Made by a program: the position numbers and the translations under genes. From contig NC_015666.1 in assembly GCF_000217715.1 (NCBI RefSeq), positions 2,306,270 to 2,370,269 on the forward strand: a stretch of 64,000 bases of DNA, written 5' to 3'. Shown here piece by piece: positions 44,650 to 56,295 of this stretch (position 1 is its first letter; every line of letters starts with the position of its first letter). The stretch is from Halopiger xanaduensis SH-6. GTDB lineage: Archaea > Halobacteriota > Halobacteria > Halobacteriales > Natrialbaceae. The notes beneath the pieces were generated by a model that did not search any database, was not told where the DNA came from, and worked only from the letters and a program-made list of their open reading frames with translations.

Positions 44650-46229
44650 CAGTTAAACACCTCCGTCAGGAAGGGGGCGAGCATATCGGCGAGCGTCCCG
44701 CCGGCGAAACCGAGCGCGACGGCGGCGAGCGCGGCGACGACGACGACCGCGAGCATGCCGAAGGAGACGGCGTCGGGCGACCCCTTGGTGCGGAACGCGG
44801 CGGCGGGGTCGACGGTTCCGGGAGCGGTGTCGGGTCCGGACGGATCGTCGTCGGTGCCGCCGTCCGTCGCGGCCGTCCCCGTCGGACGGGGCCGTTCGGC
44901 GGCCGGCGGCGTGAAGTACATCTTCTCGAGCAGGCGTGCGGCGTAGGCGAGGGTGAGCATGGTACTGAGGAAGATCACGGCCGCGACGGGCCACAGTTCG
45001 GACTGAACGGCGCCGACGGCGATGTACCACTTGCCGACGAAGCCGATGCCCGGCGGGACGCCGACCAGCGCCAGCAGGAGTACGGCAATCGAGCCGGCGG
45101 CGACCGGGCGATCCGTCGCGAGGCCGGCGTACTCGTCGACGGTGCGGGCCCCGTAGCTCGTCGCGACGAGGGCGACCCCGAGGAAGAGCCCGGCCTTCAG
45201 CAGGCCGTGGCCGACGAGGTGGATCGCGGCGCCGACGAAGGCCGTCTCGGACTGGCCGGCGATGACGACCCCGTAGGCGGCGAGCACTAGACCGAACTGC
45301 GAAACTGACGAGTACGCGAGCATCCGCTTGACCTCCCGCTGGATCACGGCAAGGACCGTGCCGGCGAGGACGCTCACGCAGCCGATCGTGACGACGATCG
45401 GCCCCGCGCGGGGCATCGCGGCGAGGTAGTCGACCTCGAAGACGGTGACGATCAACCGCCCGAAGGCGTAGGCGGAGGCCGTCGAGACCAGCGCCGCGAT
45501 CAGCGGCGTGACGCCGTCGGGCGCCCGCTCGTAGGCGCTGGGCTGCCAGCTGTGCAGCGGCCACTGGGCGACCTTGGTCGCGAAGCCGACGATCATGAAC
45601 GCGAAGCCGGCCCGGATCAGCGTCGGATCGGCGTCCGGAATCTCCGTCGCGAGTTCGACCATGTTCAGCGTCCCCGTCGCCATGAAGACGAAGGCGACGC
45701 CGATCAGGTACATCGAGGCGGCGACGGTTCCAAGGATCAGGTACTTCAGCGCAGCGACCGCCGCCTCCGGACCGTCGCCGCTGGCGACTAAGGCGTAGGT
45801 CGCGAGGCTCGTGATCTCGAGGAAGACGAACAGGTTGAACACGTCGCCGGTCAGCGAGATACCCAGCAGGCCGCCGGTTAGCAGCAGGTAGGCGCTGTAG
45901 AACGTGTTCCCGCGCGGGCCCCCGCGGCGCGTGAACGCGAGAACGCCGAGGGCGACGGCGGTTATCAGCAGGACGATCAGCATCGAGAACTGATCGGCCA
46001 CGAGCTGGATGCCGTACGTTCGGGGGTAGCCGCCGAGTTCGTGGGTGACGGCCTCGCCACCGGCGTAGACCTCGCGTGCGAGATAGACGGCCCCGCCGAA
46101 CAGCCCGAGCGTGGTGAGCCCTGCGATGGGCCACCCCGTGCGGTCGAACCACAGGCCGAGCGCGATCGGCAGCGTCGCGGCGATGATCGGCGCGACGATA
46201 AACAGCGGCACGAGCAGTTCGCTATTCAT
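44649..46229 (-). CDS. Mrp antiporter subunit D (first copy)
   Basis: A 526-residue proton-conducting membrane transporter of the MrpD/NuoN type. Motifs: FLEITSLATYALVAS, WPLHSWQPSAYERAPDGVTPLIAALVSTASAYAFG, and EVKRMLAYSSVSQFGLVLA. The ATG at 46229 (MNSELLVPL) is preferred over a GTG two codons upstream; either way it overlaps the MrpC stop. The Asp/Pro/Thr-rich stretch near residue 460 is the only hydrophilic insert. Confidence 0.9.
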   Translation of the reverse strand: MNSELLVPLFIVAPIIAATLPIALGLWFDRTGWPIAGLTTLGLFGGAVYLAREVYAGGEAVTHELGGYPRTYGIQLVADQFSMLIVLLITAVALGVLAFTRRGGPRGNTFYSAYLLLTGGLLGISLTGDVFNLFVFLEITSLATYALVASGDGPEAAVAALKYLILGTVAASMYLIGVAFVFMATGTLNMVELATEIPDADPTLIRAGFAFMIVGFATKVAQWPLHSWQPSAYERAPDGVTPLIAALVSTASAYAFGRLIVTVFEVDYLAAMPRAGPIVVTIGCVSVLAGTVLAVIQREVKRMLAYSSVSQFGLVLAAYGVVIAGQSETAFVGAAIHLVGHGLLKAGLFLGVALVATSYGARTVDEYAGLATDRPVAAGSIAVLLLALVGVPPGIGFVGKWYIAVGAVQSELWPVAAVIFLSTMLTLAYAARLLEKMYFTPPAAERPRPTGTAATDGGTDDDPSGPDTAPGTVDPAAAFRTKGSPDAVSFGMLAVVVVAALAAVALGFAGGTLADMLAPFLTEVFN

Positions 46230-46590
46230 CGGCACGCACCTCCCGAAGGGTGTCCTCGCGGAGCGTCCCGTACTCCGAGTAGATGCGGATCACGAGCGCC
46301 AGCCCGACCGCCGTCAGCGCGATCCCGACGACGATGGCGGTCAGAACGATGACCTGCGGGAGCGGACTCGCGACCCGGCCGTCCGCCGGGACGACGGGCG
46401 ACACGCCCCCCTCGACGTAGGCCATCGCGACGAAAAACAGGAAGATCGCCGTTTGGAAGAGGCTCACGCCGATCAGCTTCTTCACGAGGTTCTCGTTGGC
46501 GATCACCATGTAGAGGCCAATTCCGAGCAGCACGAACAGCAGGACGTACGCGTACTTGGACGCGAGCGCGGCGGTCAGCGCGTCAATCAT
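46222..46590 (-). CDS. mrpC: Mrp antiporter subunit C (NuoK-like)
   Basis: A 122-residue protein with three membrane helices (YAYVLLFVLLGIGLYMVI; VSLFQTAIFLFFVAMAY; VIVLTAIVVGIALTAVGLALVIRIY), the NuoK-like MrpC of cation/proton antiporters. It overlaps both MrpB (8 nt) and the next D subunit, consistent with tight translational coupling. Confidence 0.9.
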   Translation of the reverse strand: MIDALTAALASKYAYVLLFVLLGIGLYMVIANENLVKKLIGVSLFQTAIFLFFVAMAYVEGGVSPVVPADGRVASPLPQVIVLTAIVVGIALTAVGLALVIRIYSEYGTLREDTLREVRADE

Positions 46591-47137
46591 CGTCGCTCAC
46601 CTCCGCTTCCGCCTCCGCGGCCCGCGAGTCGGTCGCGGGCGAGTCGGTCGGCTCGAGCCCGCCGGTGCCGCTCCGGTCCTGGGGGCTGAACCCGGCCGCC
46701 ATCGCGAAGAACAGGGTGACGATGACGCTCGAGACGATCAGCGAGACGCCGCCGACCTCGATCGCCTCGAGGCCCCACTTCTGCTTGTGACCGAGCACGT
46801 AGTAGATCCGGTCGTACTCGAGGAAGTTCCCGCCGAGGGCCATCATCGCCAGCCCGACGCCGGCGAAGATGGCGACCCCGCCGGTCGCGAGTCCGACGAG
46901 GACGCCGTTGCGGAGCCACTGGCGTGTCGGTTCGATCCCGAAAGCGAAGGCGAGCATGAGTATCGTGACGCCGACGATGGTGCCGCCCTGGAAGCTCCCG
47001 CCGGGCGTGTCGGCGCCGTGGAAGACCAGGAACAGCCCGTAGGTCAGCGTGAACGGGGCGATGATCTTGACGGCGGTCATGATCACCTGGCTCTCGGTGT
47101 AGGTGTCGTCGACGGAGTCTGCGTTGGCGTTTGACAT
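46583..47137 (-). CDS. mrpB: Mrp antiporter subunit B
   Basis: A 184-residue MnhB/MrpB family protein. It begins with a short acidic leader and then SQVIMTAVKIIAPFTLTYGLFLVFHGADTPGGSFQGG, the signature of the family. Four membrane helices are present. The C-terminal ~30 residues are acidic. I use the ATG giving MSNANADS, one base overlapping the upstream stop (TAATG). Confidence 0.9.
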   Translation of the reverse strand: MSNANADSVDDTYTESQVIMTAVKIIAPFTLTYGLFLVFHGADTPGGSFQGGTIVGVTILMLAFAFGIEPTRQWLRNGVLVGLATGGVAIFAGVGLAMMALGGNFLEYDRIYYVLGHKQKWGLEAIEVGGVSLIVSSVIVTLFFAMAAGFSPQDRSGTGGLEPTDSPATDSRAAEAEAEVSDDD

Positions 47138-47676
47138 TAGGCGAACACCTCGCGGTTCAGCACGAGCAGCGTCGAAATGCCGGCGGCGAAGACGACGACC
47201 GCCTCGCCGAAGGTGTCGAACCCACGGTAGGCGGCCAGCACCGCGGAGACGGCGTTGTGGACGCCCGTATCGTCGACGGTGTTCTCGATGTAGTACTGGG
47301 TCACGTCGGGGTTCGACCAGACCGGAGCGTTCGGATCGCCGACGTCGTACATCTCCGGCAACACCGTCGCACACAGGACGACGACCAGCGCACCCACGAC
47401 GACGACCGCCGGCACGTGGATCCGCTCTACCAGCCGGTCGGTCGACGGGCGGGTCGTCCGCGCGATGGTCAACAGGAGCAGGAGCGTCGTCACGCCGGCG
47501 CCGATCGCGGCCTCGGTCATCGCCACGTCGGGGGCCAGCAGGAACGTGTAGAGGATGGCCATCCCGAGGCTGTAGGCGCCGAAGACGATGATAACCGATA
47601 GCACGTCCCGGAACAGCGCCGTGGCGATCGCGGTCACGAGGATGAAGATCGCGAGCGCGTAGGCGAGCGCGATCAT
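47137..47676 (-). CDS. MrpA C-terminal-like subunit (DUF4040)
   Basis: A 179-residue protein matching the DUF4040/MbhE-like C-terminal part of MrpA: VIIVFGAYSLGMAILYTFLLAPDVAMTEAAIGAGVTTLLLLLTI, then GFDTFGEAVVVFAAGISTLLVLN. Bacterial MrpA carries this as its C-terminal end; here it is a separate protein, and the large N-terminal NuoL part appears supplied by the D-like subunits. ATGA overlap with MrpG. Confidence 0.85.
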   Translation of the reverse strand: MIALAYALAIFILVTAIATALFRDVLSVIIVFGAYSLGMAILYTFLLAPDVAMTEAAIGAGVTTLLLLLTIARTTRPSTDRLVERIHVPAVVVVGALVVVLCATVLPEMYDVGDPNAPVWSNPDVTQYYIENTVDDTGVHNAVSAVLAAYRGFDTFGEAVVVFAAGISTLLVLNREVFA

Positions 47677-48125
47677 CGGGTCTCACCTCCGTCGGTGCCG
47701 GCGCCGCCGTCCGGCGCGGGGTTCGGGCCGGCACCGGTATCGGGGTCGTCCGCGTCGTCGCCGCTCGCCGGCTCGGTTTCGGCCTCGCTCTCCTCGGCGA
47801 GCAGCGGCTCGACGCCCGACTCCGCGGCCGAGCGGGCGATCGCATGGGCCGCCGTCGGGTTCGTGATGAAGATGAAAAACAGCAGCAAGACGGTGTAGAC
47901 CGCCGCCTGCTGCCAGCCGAACGCGAGCGCGACGGCCGCGAGCGCGAAGCCGGCTCCGAGCGTGTCCGTCTGGGAGGCGGTGTGGGCCCGCGCGTAGATG
48001 TCGGGCAAGCGGAGCACGCCGACCGTCGAGACGAGCGTGAAGAACACGCCGAACCCGAGCAGGACGACGATCGCCCAGAACCGGATCGGTCCGAGCGAGG
48101 ACTGAAGCGGGACCGGCTCGATCAC
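47673..48125 (-). CDS. mrpG: Mrp antiporter subunit G
   Basis: A 150-residue MrpG/PhaG family protein with three membrane helices (IRFWAIVVLLGFGVFFTLVSTVGVLRLPDIYARAHTASQTDTLG is diagnostic). The last ~60 residues are an acidic Gly/Pro tail. The GTG start sits in a GTGA overlap with the MrpF stop; the long open frame upstream is Arg-rich and overlaps mrpF, so it is not part of this gene. Confidence 0.88.
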   Translation of the reverse strand: MIEPVPLQSSLGPIRFWAIVVLLGFGVFFTLVSTVGVLRLPDIYARAHTASQTDTLGAGFALAAVALAFGWQQAAVYTVLLLFFIFITNPTAAHAIARSAAESGVEPLLAEESEAETEPASGDDADDPDTGAGPNPAPDGGAGTDGGETR

Positions 48126-48418
48126 AGCACACCACCTCGGTCGACGGTAAACTTCGAGATGGCGATCGACATCAGGAAGTTCAACAGCGCGTAGATCAGC
48201 GCCACGTCGAGGAACCACGCCTGGTCGAGCCCGGCCGCCAGCAAGGCGAGAATGACGACCGTGTTCGTCCCCAGTACGTTCACCGCGAGCAGGCGATCCT
48301 GCGTCGTCGGGCCCGCGATCGCGCGGTAAAACACCGCGATCGCGAGGACGACGAACGCCGCGGCTGCGCCGAGGAAAATCTCCTCGAGGCCGGCGCCCGA
48401 CAGCGGTCCGAGCGTCAC
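48122..48418 (-). CDS. mrpF: Mrp antiporter subunit F
   Basis: A 98-residue MrpF protein with three membrane helices: FVVLAIAVFYRAIAGPTTQDRLLAVNVLGTNTVVILALLA is typical. The GTG start lies in a GTGA overlap with the MrpE stop. Confidence 0.9.
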   Translation of the reverse strand: MTLGPLSGAGLEEIFLGAAAAFVVLAIAVFYRAIAGPTTQDRLLAVNVLGTNTVVILALLAAGLDQAWFLDVALIYALLNFLMSIAISKFTVDRGGVL

Positions 48419-49479
48419 AGCTCGTCACCTCCGACGATCTCGGCGTCGTCCCGTTCGCGCGGCGAGGCGATGGCAGCCGACTCCCGGCCGTAGAAGACGA
48501 ACCGAATCGCCTTCTCGAGGCCGCCGTCGAACAGGTCCTCTCGGGCGGCGGGGATCAGCGTGTGGACCAGCAGCTGCTGGTTGTTGGCCCGAACCGTCAG
48601 CGTGCCCGGGGTGAGCGTGATGCTGTTCGCCAGCGCGGTCAGCGGGAGCCCGCTGCGGACGCGGGCGTTGACCCGCGTCAGCGTGGGTTCGATCGGCATC
48701 GACGGCCGCAGGATGACGGCCGAGACCGCGATGTTGGCCTTGAGGATCTCCCAGAGCAGGTACGGGATGTAGATGACGAACCGAACGACGCGAATCGGCG
48801 ACTGGATCCGATCGAGCGGGTACGTAAAGGTCACTCGAGCGAGGACGATCGAGACGATTCCGGCGACGGCGGCGCCCGTGACGAGATCGAACCAGTAGAA
48901 CGGATCGCCGAGCACGAGGTAGAAGCCGAATGCGATCGCGAACGTCGCGAACAGCCGGTCGAACGTCTCGCCGCCGCTGATCAACCGCTGGTGGCGAGCG
49001 GGCCGATCGACCGGCGCCTCGTCGAACGGCAGGTTCCTCGCCTCGAGCTCGCGCTCGAGGGGCTGGAGCATCGGCGCGGTCACGCCCGGACTGTACTCGG
49101 GGTCGAGGACGATCCGATCGACGTCGTTGTCGTCGACGTACCGGCCGAAGACGCCGGCGTAATCGCGGGGCCCGAAGAGCAGTTCGTCGGTCCCGAGGAC
49201 GGCGGTTTCGACCGCGACGTCGGCGCCGCCGGCGTCCTCCTCGACCCAGTTCGTCGCGCGCGAGAGCAACTGTTCGGCGTCGTCGTGGTGTTGCTGGCTC
49301 TCGGGCGCGTCGGCGTCGTAGGGGAGCGCGACGACTAGATGGACCTCGAGTTCGGGCTCGTCAGTATCGGCGCCGGCATCCGCGTCGGCCGCTTCGAGTC
49401 CGGACCGGACCGCGTAGCCGACCGTCTGTCGGACGGTCACCGTGTCCGACAGCGGTACGAGGACTCGTTTAGCCGCCAC
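48415..49479 (-). CDS. mrpE: UspA-like domain fused to Mrp antiporter subunit E
   Basis: A 354-residue protein. Residues 1-~165 are a Usp-like cytosolic domain (KRVLVPLSDTVTVRQTVGYAV; VDDNDVDRIVLDPEYSPG). The MrpE membrane domain follows, with helices DRLFATFAIAFGFYLVLG and LVTGAAVAGIVSIVLARV, the signature YIPYLLWEILKANIAVSAVILRP, and TLTPGTLTVRANNQQLLVHTL. It is the first gene of the nine-gene operon and has a GTG start. The fusion may link ATP or stress sensing to sodium/proton exchange; that is inference. Confidence 0.9.
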   Translation of the reverse strand: MAAKRVLVPLSDTVTVRQTVGYAVRSGLEAADADAGADTDEPELEVHLVVALPYDADAPESQQHHDDAEQLLSRATNWVEEDAGGADVAVETAVLGTDELLFGPRDYAGVFGRYVDDNDVDRIVLDPEYSPGVTAPMLQPLERELEARNLPFDEAPVDRPARHQRLISGGETFDRLFATFAIAFGFYLVLGDPFYWFDLVTGAAVAGIVSIVLARVTFTYPLDRIQSPIRVVRFVIYIPYLLWEILKANIAVSAVILRPSMPIEPTLTRVNARVRSGLPLTALANSITLTPGTLTVRANNQQLLVHTLIPAAREDLFDGGLEKAIRFVFYGRESAAIASPRERDDAEIVGGDEL

Positions 49480-49737
49480 GGCACATCCCTCCTGGTGACC
49501 GTCGTTGGATATTCATGACTCTCTTTGTTACTCGATTCAAGCGGTAGCCGTAGGAAAACGATTTCGTTCTCTGTTAATCGGCTCGAACGGTCGGGACTGC
49601 TTTCACGAGTTGTCAGTGCCGATACGAACACCGGACTCGGCGATCGAGTGATCATACGTTCGATTCGCCGAGCGGAACCGATCCGCCGGGGAGCACAACC
49701 TTTACAATCTAAGTTTCAGTAGGTAAAATTGGTTTGC

Positions 49738-49923
49738 ATGACACGGGCTGAAACCGTTTCCGATCGCATCGACACCGCACGGGCTGACCTGTCCCCGACG
49801 GAGATCGCCGTCGGACTCGCGTTCGCCGCCGCGATCGCGTTTACGCTGGTCTTCCTGCAGGAACCGCTCGTCCACGACGCGATGCACAACTTCCGGCACG
49901 CGGCCGGCATCGTCTGCCACTGA
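49738..49923 (+). CDS. cbtB: CbtB family cobalt-transport protein
   Basis: A 61-residue protein with one membrane helix (IAVGLAFAAAIAFTLVFL) and the characteristic C-terminal His motif PLVHDAMHNFRHAAGIVCH, of the CbtB family associated with cobalt uptake for cobalamin synthesis. Its stop overlaps the cbtA start by one base. The promoter region upstream contains AT-rich aacctttacaatctaag, a possible TATA element. Confidence 0.9.
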   Translation: MTRAETVSDRIDTARADLSPTEIAVGLAFAAAIAFTLVFLQEPLVHDAMHNFRHAAGIVCH

Positions 49924-50684
49924 TGCTGTACGACTACCTCAAGCGAGGGGTCGCCGCGGGGCTGGTCGCCGGCCTCGCGTACGGCCTGTTCGTAGCGCTC
50001 GTCGCGAATCCGTTGAGCCAACACGTCGAGGCGGTCGGCCACGAGCACGCGCACGAGCACGGCCACGCCCACGAGCACTCCCACGCCGTCTCGGAGCTCA
50101 CGACGACCGTCGTTAGCGTCGGGAGCGGCGTCCTCTGGGCGATCTTCCTCGGCGGCGTCTTCGCGATCGCGCTGTACTTCCTCGAGCCGGCGCTTCCGGG
50201 ACGGGACGCCGCGAAGGCGTACGTCCTCGCCGGCGCGGGCTTTCTGACCGTCTCGGCGACGCCCTGGCTCGTGCTGCCACCCGCAGCGCCGGGCGCCGAG
50301 CACCTGTACGGCGTACAGACGCGGCAGGCGCTCTACCTCGCGCTGGTCGTCGTCGGTGCGATCGTCGCCGCCGCGTCGGTCCTCGCGTACCGTCGGACGG
50401 CACCGCGACATCCCCTGGCTGGCGTCGTCGCCGGTGCGGCGCCGCTCCTTGCCATCGGCATCGCACTGCCTCTCCTCACGCCGACGACCGTCACTCACTC
50501 CGGACTCTCCGCCGACCTCGTCGCGGCCTATCAGGGAATCGTCGTCCTGAGCCAGGCCGCGCTCTGGGCGCTGCTCGCGGGCGCGTTCGGCCGGCTCCAC
50601 GACTGGGAGTCGGCGACGACGGACGTGACTGCCGAGCGGACCCGAGACCACGCGACTCGAGACGACCGCGTCGCGAACCCGTAA
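49923..50684 (+). CDS. cbtA: CbtA family cobalt-transport protein
   Basis: A 253-residue membrane protein of the CbtA family with about five to six helices. After the first helix comes a strongly His/Glu-rich loop (GHEHAHEHGHAHEHSH), a likely metal-binding site for Co2+. The rest shows SGVLWAIFLGGVFAIALYF and RTAPRHPLAGVVAGAAPLLAIG. It works with CbtB upstream. The usual cobalt chelatase genes are absent from the next few kilobases. Confidence 0.88.
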   Translation: MLYDYLKRGVAAGLVAGLAYGLFVALVANPLSQHVEAVGHEHAHEHGHAHEHSHAVSELTTTVVSVGSGVLWAIFLGGVFAIALYFLEPALPGRDAAKAYVLAGAGFLTVSATPWLVLPPAAPGAEHLYGVQTRQALYLALVVVGAIVAAASVLAYRRTAPRHPLAGVVAGAAPLLAIGIALPLLTPTTVTHSGLSADLVAAYQGIVVLSQAALWALLAGAFGRLHDWESATTDVTAERTRDHATRDDRVANP

Positions 50685-50688
50685 TTAT

Positions 50689-51051
50689 ATGCGAGATCGA
50701 ACCGCCCGGCAGCGCGAGCGCCTCGAGGCCCACGTCTTCGTCTGTACGAACGACCGCGAATCGGAACACGCCTGCTGCGGGGACGTCGGCGCCGACGAGA
50801 CGCTCGAGGCCGTCGTCTCCTGGCTGCGCGAGCGGGACGCGTTCTGGACCGCGGTCTCGGTGACGACGACCGGCTGTCTCGGCCTCTGCAGCGAGGGCGG
50901 GACGGCGATCTCGATCTAGCCGCGCAACGAGTGGTACTCCGACGTCCGCCCCGACGACGTACCGGCGCTGCTCGAGGACGCGTTCGGCCCCGATGCGGAA
51001 CGGATCGCCGGCGGAGACGGGGGCGGGGACGGGGACGAGAACCCCCAATAA
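50689..51051 (+). pseudogene. [2Fe-2S] ferredoxin-like protein interrupted by in-frame TAG
   Basis: The frame encodes a thioredoxin-fold ferredoxin: HVFVCTNDRESEHACCGD, then VTTTGCLGLCSEGGTAISI, with the cysteines of a [2Fe-2S] cluster. A TAG at 50917-50919 ends this at 76 residues. Reading on in the same frame gives PRNEWYSDVRPDDVPALLED and ends at TAA 51049-51051. That continuation looks like the normal C-terminus of the family, where Tyr (TAC/TAT) would fit the stop position. So it is probably a recent nonsense mutation; the truncated protein may still fold around the cluster. It is 4 bp after cbtA in a cobalt/cobalamin context. Confidence 0.78.
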
Positions 51052-51140
51052 CCAGCGAACGGCCGCCGCCGAACGCGACGTCCGAACGATCGTCCGACTG
51101 GAGCGCGAACTTTCTTCGGCGTTCATGTGGTCGACCTCCC

Positions 51141-52331
51141 ATGGCCGCACCCACAGATACCGATAGCGACGTCGTCCTCGTCGACGGCGTGCGAACGCCC
51201 CACGGAACGCTCCTCGGATCGCTCGCGGACGTCGAGGCGGTCGCACTCGGCCGCACGGCCGTCGACGGCCTCCTCGAGCGCGTCGACGTCGACGACGACG
51301 CTATCGACTGGGTCGCACTCGGAAACGCCATCCAGGCCGGTATCGGGCAAGTTCCGGGGCGACAGGTCGTCGTCGAATCGAGGGTTCCAAACGATACGCG
51401 CGCGACGACGATCAACGAGGCCTCGGGATCGGGGATGAGCGCCGTCTCGCTCGCGGCCGATCGGATCGCGGCCGGCCGCGCCGACCTGGCGGTCGCGGGC
51501 GGGTTCGAATCGATGACCGACGCGCCGTGGATCCTCCCCGGCTACCGGACCGGCCGCCGGTACGGCGACGTCGAACTCAAGGACTCGATGCTCTACGATT
51601 CGCTGTGGGACGTCAACCTCGACGTCCACATGGGCGAGATCACCGAGGGACTTGTCGACCGCGAAGGAATCTTCCGGGTGGCACAGGACGAGTACGCCCT
51701 CGAGAGCCATCGGCGGGCCGCCGAGGCGATCGACGACGGGGGATTTGACGCTGAGATCGTCCCGGTCGAGACGAACGGCGAAACGGTCGACACCGACGAG
51801 GGACCGCGACCGGACTCCACGCTCGAGGACCTCGCCGAACTCCCGACTCCCTTCCGCGAAGACGGCACCATCACGCCCGGCAACGCCTCCAAGCTCAGCG
51901 ACGGCGCGGGTGCAGTGTTGTTAGCCGACGCGGACGCGGCCGACGAGCACGGCCTCGAGCCCATGGCGCGACTCGTCGACTACGCAACTGCGTACCGCGA
52001 CCCGGATCGGTTCAACGAGGCCGTCGGCGACGTCACCGAGGCGCTGCTCGAGCGCAACGACCTCGCGGTCGACGACGTCGACGCCTACTGGATCAACGAG
52101 GCCTTCGCCGCGCAGGCGGTCTACGTGATGGGCCGCGTCGGCATCCCGCGCGAGAAGCTGAACCCGCAGGGCGGCGCGGTCGCGTTCGGCCACCCGATCG
52201 GCGCCTCCGGCGGGATGCTCGCGGCGAGTCTGGCCTACCAGCTTCGGGACGATCCGGACATCGAGCGCGGCGTCGTCGGGATGAGCATCGGCGGCGGCGG
52301 GGCGATCCTGGGGCTGCTCGAGGCGTGCTGA
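51141..52331 (+). CDS. Thiolase family acyltransferase with Ser at nucleophile site
   Basis: A 396-residue thiolase (acetyl-CoA C-acyltransferase fold) that would condense or cleave acyl-CoAs. The nucleophile loop, normally NKVCGSG, reads INEASGSG, with Ser95 in place of Cys. The catalytic His is present in GHPIGASGG (His351), but the C-terminal Cys of CIGGG is replaced: MSIGGG (Ser382). Haloarchaeal beta-ketothiolases with non-Cys triads are known from recollection of Haloferax work, so activity may be retained. The start is the ATG giving MAAPTDTD. It stands alone, not next to a DUF35 partner. Confidence 0.88.
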   Translation: MAAPTDTDSDVVLVDGVRTPHGTLLGSLADVEAVALGRTAVDGLLERVDVDDDAIDWVALGNAIQAGIGQVPGRQVVVESRVPNDTRATTINEASGSGMSAVSLAADRIAAGRADLAVAGGFESMTDAPWILPGYRTGRRYGDVELKDSMLYDSLWDVNLDVHMGEITEGLVDREGIFRVAQDEYALESHRRAAEAIDDGGFDAEIVPVETNGETVDTDEGPRPDSTLEDLAELPTPFREDGTITPGNASKLSDGAGAVLLADADAADEHGLEPMARLVDYATAYRDPDRFNEAVGDVTEALLERNDLAVDDVDAYWINEAFAAQAVYVMGRVGIPREKLNPQGGAVAFGHPIGASGGMLAASLAYQLRDDPDIERGVVGMSIGGGGAILGLLEAC

Positions 52332-52362
52332 TCCGATACTCGAGGAACGGATCCGGTTCGGT

Positions 52363-53337
52363 TCAGCCGCCGCGGGTGGCCGCCGCGACGCTCGGACCGA
52401 GCCGATGCCAGAGGCGACGCGCGAGAGCGACGCTCACGACCGCGAAGAGTGCCACGTAGACGTACCGCGAAAGCAGGATCGGGATGATGCAGGGCCGCCC
52501 GCAGCCGGTTCGGTCCACCATCGACCCGGTCAGTTCCACGAGGACGTCGACGAACTGCAGCGGAGGCGTCGTCGCGAGCGCGACGAACAGTCCGAGGAAG
52601 GCAACGAGTTCCGGAATCCGGCGGTCGCGTATCGATCGCCGGGCCGCTGCGAAACCGGACTCGTCCGGTCGACGGTCGAGCTGACTCCGAAGCGCGTACC
52701 ACGGCGTCGCGAAGACGATCGCGACGGGGATCGCGATCAGGCTCGCTGCGATAGCCATCGCAGCGGCTACGTATCCGAGTCCCGCTCCGGGGCCGCCGGT
52801 CTCGAGCGTGCTCCGAGCCGCTCGCACCCCGTACGCGGCGACGAGGGGTGGAAGGACGGCGATCCCTGCGACGGAACACGCTCGCTGCCGGCGCGTGGCG
52901 GCGACGTCGAAGGCGAGCAGCCAGGCGAGGTAGTAGCCGACCCAGAAGGAGCGATTCGTAGCGACCAGCTCTCGGAGTGTCTCGCCTGGTGACGTCAGCT
53001 GACCCGCCGAGGCGAACTCGAGTCCGAACAGGACTACGACGGCGCCGATCGCCGTCGAGAGGGTGACAACGAACGGAAATCGCGTCGACTGCGTCGCTCG
53101 AGTCCAACCGACGACGAGCGTACCGAAGACGAGGTACACCACGCCCACGTTGAACGGGTCGAAGAGGGGACCGAACAGCCGAAGTTGGCGCCCGTCTACG
53201 GGCGTATTCGTGGACAGGTACCGAACGAAGTCGGCGTGAACGAGGCTGTCGAAGACGAATCCGAGCGCGACGGCCAGAACGACGAATCCGATTCCCGCTC
53301 CGATTAGTCGCGTTCCGTTCCGCTGAGTCGTGCTCAT
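52363..53337 (-). CDS. Polytopic membrane protein of unknown function
   Basis: A 324-residue protein with about seven to eight hydrophobic segments (LIGAGIGFVVLAVALGFVFD; VGVVYLVFGTLVVGW; VVTLSTAIGAVVVLFGLEF; VAAAMAIAASLIAIPVAIVF; ELVAFLGLFVALATTPPL; YVYVALFAVVSVALARRL). A CGRPC pair lies in a loop near residue 280 and could form a disulfide. No family was recognised; composition is native. It is convergent with the thiolase. Confidence 0.7.
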   Translation of the reverse strand: MSTTQRNGTRLIGAGIGFVVLAVALGFVFDSLVHADFVRYLSTNTPVDGRQLRLFGPLFDPFNVGVVYLVFGTLVVGWTRATQSTRFPFVVTLSTAIGAVVVLFGLEFASAGQLTSPGETLRELVATNRSFWVGYYLAWLLAFDVAATRRQRACSVAGIAVLPPLVAAYGVRAARSTLETGGPGAGLGYVAAAMAIAASLIAIPVAIVFATPWYALRSQLDRRPDESGFAAARRSIRDRRIPELVAFLGLFVALATTPPLQFVDVLVELTGSMVDRTGCGRPCIIPILLSRYVYVALFAVVSVALARRLWHRLGPSVAAATRGG

Positions 53338-53508
53338 ACCGGTGCCCTCGTCAACCGACCGCCGGGGTATATGTTTTATGTGTTGACAGGTGGGCCGCCC
53401 GATCTCGTTCCGCGGTGGATCGATCCCGCATCCGACGGGTCGATCCGTCGGTTCGACTGGAAACCGGCTTCGAGACGTTTACCTACCGTCCGTCCACACC
53501 TCCACTAA

Positions 53509-54579
53509 ATGACGCTGTACTCGCGGGTTCGCCCCCTCGCGTTCAAACTCCCGGCCGAGACGGCCCACGGCCTCGGGAAGCGAGCGCTCCGGGCGGCCCA
53601 ATCCACCCGGCCGACGCGGGCGGCGATTTCTTTCGCGTACCGGTACGAGCACCCCGCCCTCGAGGTCGACCTGTTCGATACCACCTTCCCGAACCCGGTC
53701 GGCGTCGCGGCCGGCTTCGACAAGAACGCCGAAGTCACCCGCGCCCTCGAGGCGCTGGGCTTCGGCTTCGTCGAAATCGGCACCGTCACGCCCTACCCGC
53801 AAGAGGGCAACGACCGCCCGCGGCTGTTCCGCCTCCGGGAGGACGAGGCGATGGTCAACCGCATGGGTTTCAACGGCCAGGGGATGGAGCGCGTGAAGGC
53901 CCGGCTCGAGGAAGACGGCACGCCGAACGTCCCGCTGGGCGTCAACGTCGGGAAGATGAACTCCTCGAGCGAGGAGGAAGCGATCGAGGACTACCGCCGC
54001 GTCTTCGATCGGCTCTCGCCGTTCGCCGACTACGTCGTGGTGAACGTCTCCTGTCCGAACACGCCCGACGAGTTCGACGAGGCCTCGCCGGAGCACCTCC
54101 GGGCGATCTTCGAGACGCTCGAGGCGGAAAACGACGCGGACGTGCCGATCCTCGTGAAGATCGGCCCCGACGAACCCGAAAACGCCGTCCTGGACCTGGT
54201 CGATATCGTCCAGGAGTTCGGCCTCGACGGGATGATCGCGACCAACACCTCGACCGGCCGCGAGGGGCTCGCGTCGCCGAACCGCGAGGAGTGGGGCGGC
54301 TTAAGCGGCAAGCCGATCGAGGACCGTTCGACCGACGTGATCCGGACGATCGCCGACTACACCGACGGCGATCTCCCCATCATCGGCGTCGGCGGCGTCG
54401 ACTCGGCCGCGAGCGCTTACCGGAAGATCCGCGCCGGCGCCTCGCTCGTTCAACTCTACACCGGGTTCGTCTACCGGGGTCCCTCGACTGCCAAGCGGAT
54501 TAATAACGGGCTGGTCGAGCTACTCGAGCGCGACGGCTTCTCGTCGATTGAGGACGCTGTCGGGGCGGATCTCGATTGA
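53509..54579 (+). CDS. pyrD: Dihydroorotate dehydrogenase, class 2-like
   Basis: Oxidises dihydroorotate to orotate in pyrimidine synthesis, using FMN. The 356-residue length, the N-terminal helical extension (YSRVRPLAFKLPAETAHGLGKRAL) and AAGFDKNAEVTRALEALGFGFVEIGTVTPYPQEGN match the quinone-linked class 2, as do LPIIGVGGVDSA and GASLVQLYTGFVYRGP. The base position, Ser175 in E. coli PyrD (NISSPNT), is Cys182 here (NVSCPNT), as in class 1 enzymes. pyrC lies close by on the other strand. Confidence 0.93.
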   Translation: MTLYSRVRPLAFKLPAETAHGLGKRALRAAQSTRPTRAAISFAYRYEHPALEVDLFDTTFPNPVGVAAGFDKNAEVTRALEALGFGFVEIGTVTPYPQEGNDRPRLFRLREDEAMVNRMGFNGQGMERVKARLEEDGTPNVPLGVNVGKMNSSSEEEAIEDYRRVFDRLSPFADYVVVNVSCPNTPDEFDEASPEHLRAIFETLEAENDADVPILVKIGPDEPENAVLDLVDIVQEFGLDGMIATNTSTGREGLASPNREEWGGLSGKPIEDRSTDVIRTIADYTDGDLPIIGVGGVDSAASAYRKIRAGASLVQLYTGFVYRGPSTAKRINNGLVELLERDGFSSIEDAVGADLD

Positions 54580-54606
54580 GTCGGCCGTCGGTGTGGGCCG
54601 CCGGTC

Positions 54607-54843
54607 TCACCGGCCGATGAGCGATTTCAGCCTCGAGAGGAGTCCGTCCCCACCGTCGGACCCGATTTCGAGCTCGTCGTCGGTCGCCCGAAAGTCAGGA
54701 CCGAGCGTGTTCGCGGCCGACACCGCAGGACAGTCGTGGTTCTCCGGCAGCCGGTGCTCGGAGCAGTAGCCGTCTCCGCAGTACGAGCAGGAGTTTTTCA
54801 TGCTGTCGTCGCCGGAACAGCCCGGATACGCGCAGTCACCCAT
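54607..54843 (-). CDS. AN1-type zinc finger protein
   Basis: A 78-residue protein with an AN1-like finger: C-x4-C (CAYPGC) near the N-terminus, then CSYCGDGYCSEHRLPENHDC, giving the Cys/His ligands of an AN1 fold. The C-terminal third (DGLLSRLKSLIGR) is a short amphipathic tail. Such proteins may bind ubiquitin-like or other partners; the role is unknown here. It lies between pyrD and pyrC but on the pyrC strand. Confidence 0.85.
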   Translation of the reverse strand: MGDCAYPGCSGDDSMKNSCSYCGDGYCSEHRLPENHDCPAVSAANTLGPDFRATDDELEIGSDGGDGLLSRLKSLIGR

Positions 54844-54927
54844 TCGGTTCTAGGGAAGCGGTCAGATAGTATCAATCTGTGGTTCGTCGCTAGTTCTCCG
54901 CGAGCGAAACGTACCCATCAGTCGCGT

Positions 54928-56295
54928 CTATTCGACGTCGACGCGCGTCCCGTACCCCGACTCGCCGACGATCTCGCCGTCCTCGTAGACGACCTCACCG
55001 CGGACGACCGTTGCGACCGCTTTGCCGGTGAAGGATTCGCCGATAAACGGCGTCACGCAGTTCTTCGAGTGGAGTTCGTCGGCGGATTCGAGCGTCCACT
55101 CCCGCTCGGGGTCGACGATCGTGAAGTCGGCGTCGGTGCCGACCTGCAGCGACCCCTTCTGCGGGTACATGCCCCAGATCTGCGCCGGCCGGGTCGAGTG
55201 GCGGCGGACCCACTCCTCCATCGTGAGCCGCCCTTCGTCGACGAAGGAGAGCATGACCGGCACCTCGGTCTCGAGGCCGACGAAGCCGGAAATCGCCTCC
55301 CAGGTGTTGCCGAACGGATCGTCGACCTTCTTCTCCTCGGGCGTGTGGGGTGCGTGATCGGTGGCGATGGAGTCGATCGCGCCGTCCTCGATGCCGACCT
55401 CCCAGAGCTTCTCGCGCTCGTCGGCGTCCCGGATCGGCGGCTGGATGCGGGCCGGGTTCCCTTTCTCGCGCATGACCTCCTCGGTGAACCAGAGGTAGTG
55501 GGGCGTCGTCTCGGCGGTGACGTCGACGCCGCGTTCCTTGCCGCGGGCGACGGCTTCGGCCGCCGACCCCGAGGAGACGTGGAACATGTGAATCTTCGCG
55601 CCGGTCTCCTCGGCGAAGGTGATCATCCGCTCGACGGCTTCTTGCTCGGCGATGACGGGGCGAGAGTGAGAGTGGTCGATCGGGTCGTTGCGCCCCTCGG
55701 CCTTGAACTGCTCCGTGTAGTGGTCGATGATCTCTCCGTTCTCCTCGTGGAAGCCGAGCCGCTTGCCCGTCTCGCGGATCTTCGCCATGGCCTCGAGGAT
55801 CTCGCCGTCGTTCGGCGGCGGCACGTCGCCGACGGTCGAGCCGAGGAAAATCTTGAAGCCGAGCGCGCCGGCCTCGTCGATCTCGGGGATGAGATCGAGG
55901 TTCTCCGAGGTGACGACGGCGTAGCTCTGGAAGTCGACGTGGGCCGAGTCCTCCCCGCGCTCGAACTTCAACTCGAGGTGCTCGGGCCGGTCGATGACCG
56001 GATCGGTGTTGGGCATTCCGACGACGGTCGTGACGCCGCCGGCGGCGGCCGCGCGGGTCGCGGACTCCCAGTCTTCCTTGTACTCGAGGCCGGGCTCGCG
56101 GTTGTGGATGTGGCCGTCGACGATGCCGGGGACCAGGACCTTCCCCTCGGCGTCGACGACGCGGTCCGCGTCCGGCAGGCGGTCGCTGCGGCCGACGGCG
56201 ACGATGGTGCCGTCCTCGACGGCGACGCCCGCGTCGGGCGTGCGCCCCGCGGGCGTGACGACGGTACAGTTGCGGACGACGAGGTCGACGGTCAT
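54928..56295 (-). CDS. pyrC: Dihydroorotase
   Basis: A 455-residue metal-dependent amidohydrolase that closes carbamoyl-aspartate to dihydroorotate. The metal motif GIVDGHIHNREPGLEYKEDW, the carboxylated-Lys region LGFKIFLGSTVGD and AEVT-like GVDVTAETTPHYLWFT, plus SIATDHAPHTPEEK, match class I dihydroorotases. An allantoinase could look alike, but pyrD nearby favours PyrC. The start is the ATG at 56295 (MTVDLVVRN); 54 upstream codons in frame look non-coding. Confidence 0.9.
   Translation of the reverse strand: MTVDLVVRNCTVVTPAGRTPDAGVAVEDGTIVAVGRSDRLPDADRVVDAEGKVLVPGIVDGHIHNREPGLEYKEDWESATRAAAAGGVTTVVGMPNTDPVIDRPEHLELKFERGEDSAHVDFQSYAVVTSENLDLIPEIDEAGALGFKIFLGSTVGDVPPPNDGEILEAMAKIRETGKRLGFHEENGEIIDHYTEQFKAEGRNDPIDHSHSRPVIAEQEAVERMITFAEETGAKIHMFHVSSGSAAEAVARGKERGVDVTAETTPHYLWFTEEVMREKGNPARIQPPIRDADEREKLWEVGIEDGAIDSIATDHAPHTPEEKKVDDPFGNTWEAISGFVGLETEVPVMLSFVDEGRLTMEEWVRRHSTRPAQIWGMYPQKGSLQVGTDADFTIVDPEREWTLESADELHSKNCVTPFIGESFTGKAVATVVRGEVVYEDGEIVGESGYGTRVDVE

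Follow-up and report, generated by a model that had tools for sequence, protein, structure and literature searches.

In Halopiger xanaduensis SH-6 the gene for a thioredoxin-like [2Fe-2S] ferredoxin, part of a unit with cbtB and cbtA, has quite probably been broken by a recent nonsense mutation, a Gln codon changed to TAG in the only stand-alone copy, with the loss presumably tolerated. By alignment none of the relatives examined shares the stop with this genome, and the gene is best read as in effect a pseudogene. This agrees with the preliminary description, which proposed a recent nonsense mutation or a sequencing error: none of the 51 haloarchaeal relatives stops at this place, and the segment beyond the stop is conserved.

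The ferredoxin frame and the neighbouring genes

The frame (50689–51051, plus strand) is located in a window of 64,000 nucleotides, the whole stretch of DNA that was analysed, within the 3,668,009-base contig C3 of a genome of 4,355,268 bases in 4 contigs, and the base call is from one assembly only. The reading frame confirms that it stays open for 43 sense codons past the TAG and ends with a TAA, and the reported adjacency to cbtAB is correct, with intact PF09489 and PF09490 genes directly upstream in the order cbtB, cbtA, ferredoxin (Table 1). The ferredoxin frame begins four bases past the cbtA stop, and the next gene downstream is a thiolase gene. By length alone, an open continuation of 43 codons is not above chance and means little in a GC-rich genome; among 48 selected ORFs of the window (at least 120 aa, codon-biased) nine end in TAG, and four of these nine stay open for at least 43 codons beyond the stop. 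The conservation of the stretch does exceed chance, since the same residues are found in one unbroken frame in all 51 haloarchaeal relatives.

Table 1. Features of the cbtB-cbtA-ferredoxin unit, with positions in the window.
Feature	Position	Strand	Remarks
cbtB, putative cobalt transporter subunit	49738..49923	+	61 aa, intact; PF09489 E 3.6e-16, profile 3-51 of 51
cbtA, putative cobalt transporter subunit	49923..50684	+	253 aa, intact; PF09490 E 2.2e-51, profile 3-237 of 239
5' part, thioredoxin-like [2Fe-2S] ferredoxin gene	50689..50919	+	76 codons + TAG; all four conserved Cys; PDB relatives 5abr, 1f37
Premature TAG	50917..50919	+	relatives: Gln codon 47/51, His codon 4/51
Rest of ferredoxin frame	50920..51051	+	43 sense codons + TAA; conserved C-terminal segment; 1f37 profile match reaches position 99

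The TAG codon in relatives and the age of the probable lesion

The 51 haloarchaeal relatives (49 distinct) consist of 22 from a search of 61 genomes, the own genome excluded, and 29 from a genome collection, where 80 of 109 relatives were kept and 51 of those 80 are bacterial. All 51 haloarchaeal frames are uninterrupted across the TAG place, as is characteristic of the relatives of a nonsense pseudogene, and from this codon each protein continues for another 30–50 residues. Orthologs ending at the same place, the outcome that the preliminary description had set against its own reading, are thus not found among them. The codons aligned to the TAG are CAG in 41, CAA in 6, CAC in 3 and CAT in one, and the haloarchaeal ferredoxins accordingly have Gln or His where the bacterial thioredoxin-like [2Fe-2S] ferredoxins have Tyr (50 of 51, with a gap in the remaining one, from a Chlorobaculum parvum MAG). 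The suggestion that an aromatic residue would fit at the stop is therefore right for the bacterial relatives but not for the haloarchaea. The proposed path from TAC has to be abandoned, the commonest haloarchaeal codon being CAG, and the TAG would most simply have arisen from it by one transition, since the haloarchaeal lineage has Gln at this place. In the Chlorobaculum parvum MAG the ferredoxin frame (near 739–906) ends early, just past the last cluster Cys, which may reflect either a genuine truncation or a fault in the assembly.

The sister species (one other Halopiger species was compared) has CAG at the TAG place, then the three codons that also follow the TAG in the window, and its product is 114 aa. 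From Nei-Gojobori counts with Jukes-Cantor correction, dN/dS against the sister is 0.27 before the stop (76 codons) and 0.11 after it (33 codons, a rough value from few changes), compared to 0.19 for cbtA, 0.14 for the thiolase gene and 0.19 for the USP/MnhE gene; the value of 0.87 for CbtB rests on only 2 synonymous differences. These ratios show, at the level of codon comparison, that the post-stop segment was under purifying selection as protein until lately, and since its dN/dS is only about 0.11 the mutation probably arose after the split from the sister species. The first 76 codons have no clear extra decay, which is expected for a recent mutation but equally for a wrong base call or a working short product.

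The translated part, its fold and competing explanations

As stated in the preliminary description, all cluster Cys precede the stop: C19, C30, C63 and C67 are invariant in 27 aligned sequences. The 76-aa part is similar to the solved structures 5abr (E 9e-7) and 1f37 (E 8e-5), and a whole-frame profile aligns with the Aquifex aeolicus ferredoxin 1f37 at positions 14–99, across the stop, with E 4.3e-11, placing the protein with the thioredoxin-like [2Fe-2S] ferredoxins of the Aquifex/FeSI type. A Pfam search of the 76-aa part at 1e-3 gave no match, and its NCBIfam matches are all under the family cut-offs. The structure models of the whole frame and the short form are both poor, with mean pLDDT of 52.4 and 57.7, and carry little weight; in the low-confidence whole-frame model the post-stop part forms a strand at 81–83 and a helix at 88–99, and in the fold search with this model the best match is 1m2a with E 3e-3, none being found at 1e-3. 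The Cys pattern of the frame is the same as in Aquifex aeolicus 1f37/1m2a and Azotobacter FeSI 5abr, which are also the top fold matches of that model, but unlike in these proteins the frame is broken before the last strand and helix. The TAG removes both elements from the translated product, and judged from the alignment and the model the complete fold would be present only if the frame were read through. The 76-residue fragment is probably unstable or inactive, and loss of function is likely for a short form that keeps the four Cys but loses the last strand and helix.

The preliminary description left room for a shorter functional product. A minimal ferredoxin of 76 aa is conceivable with its four invariant Cys, and the codons before the stop are under purifying selection, though this mostly reflects the time before the mutation. 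It is nevertheless very unlikely, as none of the 51 haloarchaeal relatives ends at the TAG place, nine residues invariant among the 27 aligned sequences are lost with the post-stop part (P78, W82, P88, V91, L94, L95, F99, G100 and A103, with several more that are near-invariant), and the strand and helix predicted by the low-confidence model would be missing. Readthrough or recoding of the TAG, by an amber tRNA or as pyrrolysine, would give the full-length protein and agrees with the conserved frame past the stop, but it is hardly to be expected in this genome. No CTA anticodon is found among 45 tRNA places (ARAGORN typed 42, and three with introns were read by eye as Asn, Arg and Gln), a list that lacks tRNA-Trp and hence is incomplete. 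The best PylS match of the genome scores 33 bits, far below the cut-off of 178, which one of 14 control genomes passes. The use of TAG as the end of nine of the 48 selected ORFs also speaks against recoding, and no special residue should be required at the TAG place because relatives have Gln or His there. Amber recoding and pyrrolysine insertion were set aside as unlikely on the incomplete tRNA list and the PylS result, and reinitiation past the stop is likewise improbable, there being no in-frame ATG, GTG or TTG after it and a single CTG at 50968. An Rfam search of 46000–55000 detected neither a structured RNA that might act as recoding signal nor a B12 riboswitch, and no terminator-like site was found at 49400–51200 with a bacterial consensus that is of little use for an archaeon. 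The tRNA-Asn(GTT), tRNA-Arg(TCT) and tRNA-Gln(TTG) genes of the own genome have apparent introns at the anticodon loop and are unreported by ARAGORN.

There is also a slim chance that the TAG is tolerated in another way, with the fragment carrying the four Cys, or low-level readthrough, still serving the CbtAB cobalt-uptake unit, which would then be served by a minimal or conditionally completed ferredoxin. The one serious rival is a single-base assembly error with the ferredoxin gene intact in the organism, which we regard as unlikely. The sequence on both flanks of the stop looks constrained in comparison to the sister and the TAG is one base away from the codon of most relatives, both in line with an error, but the genome is in 4 contigs with a completeness of 99.98%, and a finished genome seldom contains wrongly substituted bases. 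The total size also agrees with that of the finished genome of Halopiger xanaduensis SH-6, the species being given 4.35 Mb in PMC3910545.

According to the preferred reading, a recent nonsense mutation, one transition would have turned the Gln codon of the cbtB-cbtA-linked gene into TAG, translation would end after 76 residues, and the fragment without the last beta-strand and C-terminal helix would probably be unstable or inactive. The loss would be tolerated because many relatives can dispense with the gene and a different protein takes over electron transfer in cobalt handling or B12 synthesis, possibly a CbiX-[2Fe-2S] fusion encoded elsewhere on the same chromosome. Nonsense pseudogenes of prokaryotic accessory genes have a private premature stop and a conserved remainder in a patchily distributed gene; the ferredoxin of the window shares all three traits, with no notable difference. 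Most likely this is ordinary decay of a gene that is missing from many relatives.

Distribution, gene context and a possible role in cobalt handling

The ferredoxin gene is patchily distributed: 23 of 61 genomes have it. In the same set 18 genomes encode CbtA, 17 of which also have the ferredoxin, and in 16 it adjoins cbtA; the exceptions are G015, where it is not adjacent, and G055, which has no ferredoxin. Haloferax alexandrinus has cbtB, cbtA and the gene of a Trx-like [2Fe-2S] ferredoxin in succession (cds240-242), and their transcripts drop together under silver, with table values of -2.9, -2.83 and -2.95 (PMC10694973). The gene order is the same as in the window, whereas the third gene is interrupted in the window. 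The adjacency to cbtA, the CbiX and chelatase neighbours in another genome and the joint silver response point to a probable role of the ferredoxin in cobalt handling or B12 synthesis. The own genome also encodes CobN and CbiC, and in addition an intact CbiX of 412 aa with a C-terminal thioredoxin-like [2Fe-2S] domain (L168:1450-2688; around C3:2255254-2255484), and this fusion protein may cover for the broken ferredoxin. A second stand-alone ferredoxin copy was rejected, as the genome gave one match only at E 0.001. Among the matches listed in a literature search for Halopiger with pseudogene, ferredoxin and cobalt there is no mention of Halopiger. Another accessory gene broken in recent times means little as such, and the side value lies in the gene context; the strain would provide a naturally occurring loss of function of the cbtA-linked ferredoxin.

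The ferredoxin is present without CbtA in six genomes (G005, G013, G014, G022, G029 and G046), and neighbours were listed at these six loci and in G015, with ten neighbours typed. In G014 (L160:1803-8431), where no cbtA was found, the surroundings of the gene form a B12-type cluster: two CbiX genes lie to one side of it together with a DUF3209 gene and a PQQ_2-type gene, and a ChlI/VWA chelatase-like subunit is encoded to the other. In G005, G013, G022 and G029, where cbtA was likewise not found, the ferredoxin keeps its slot beside the USP/Mnh genes (named by eye), which gives the impression of a unit that has lost cbtAB.
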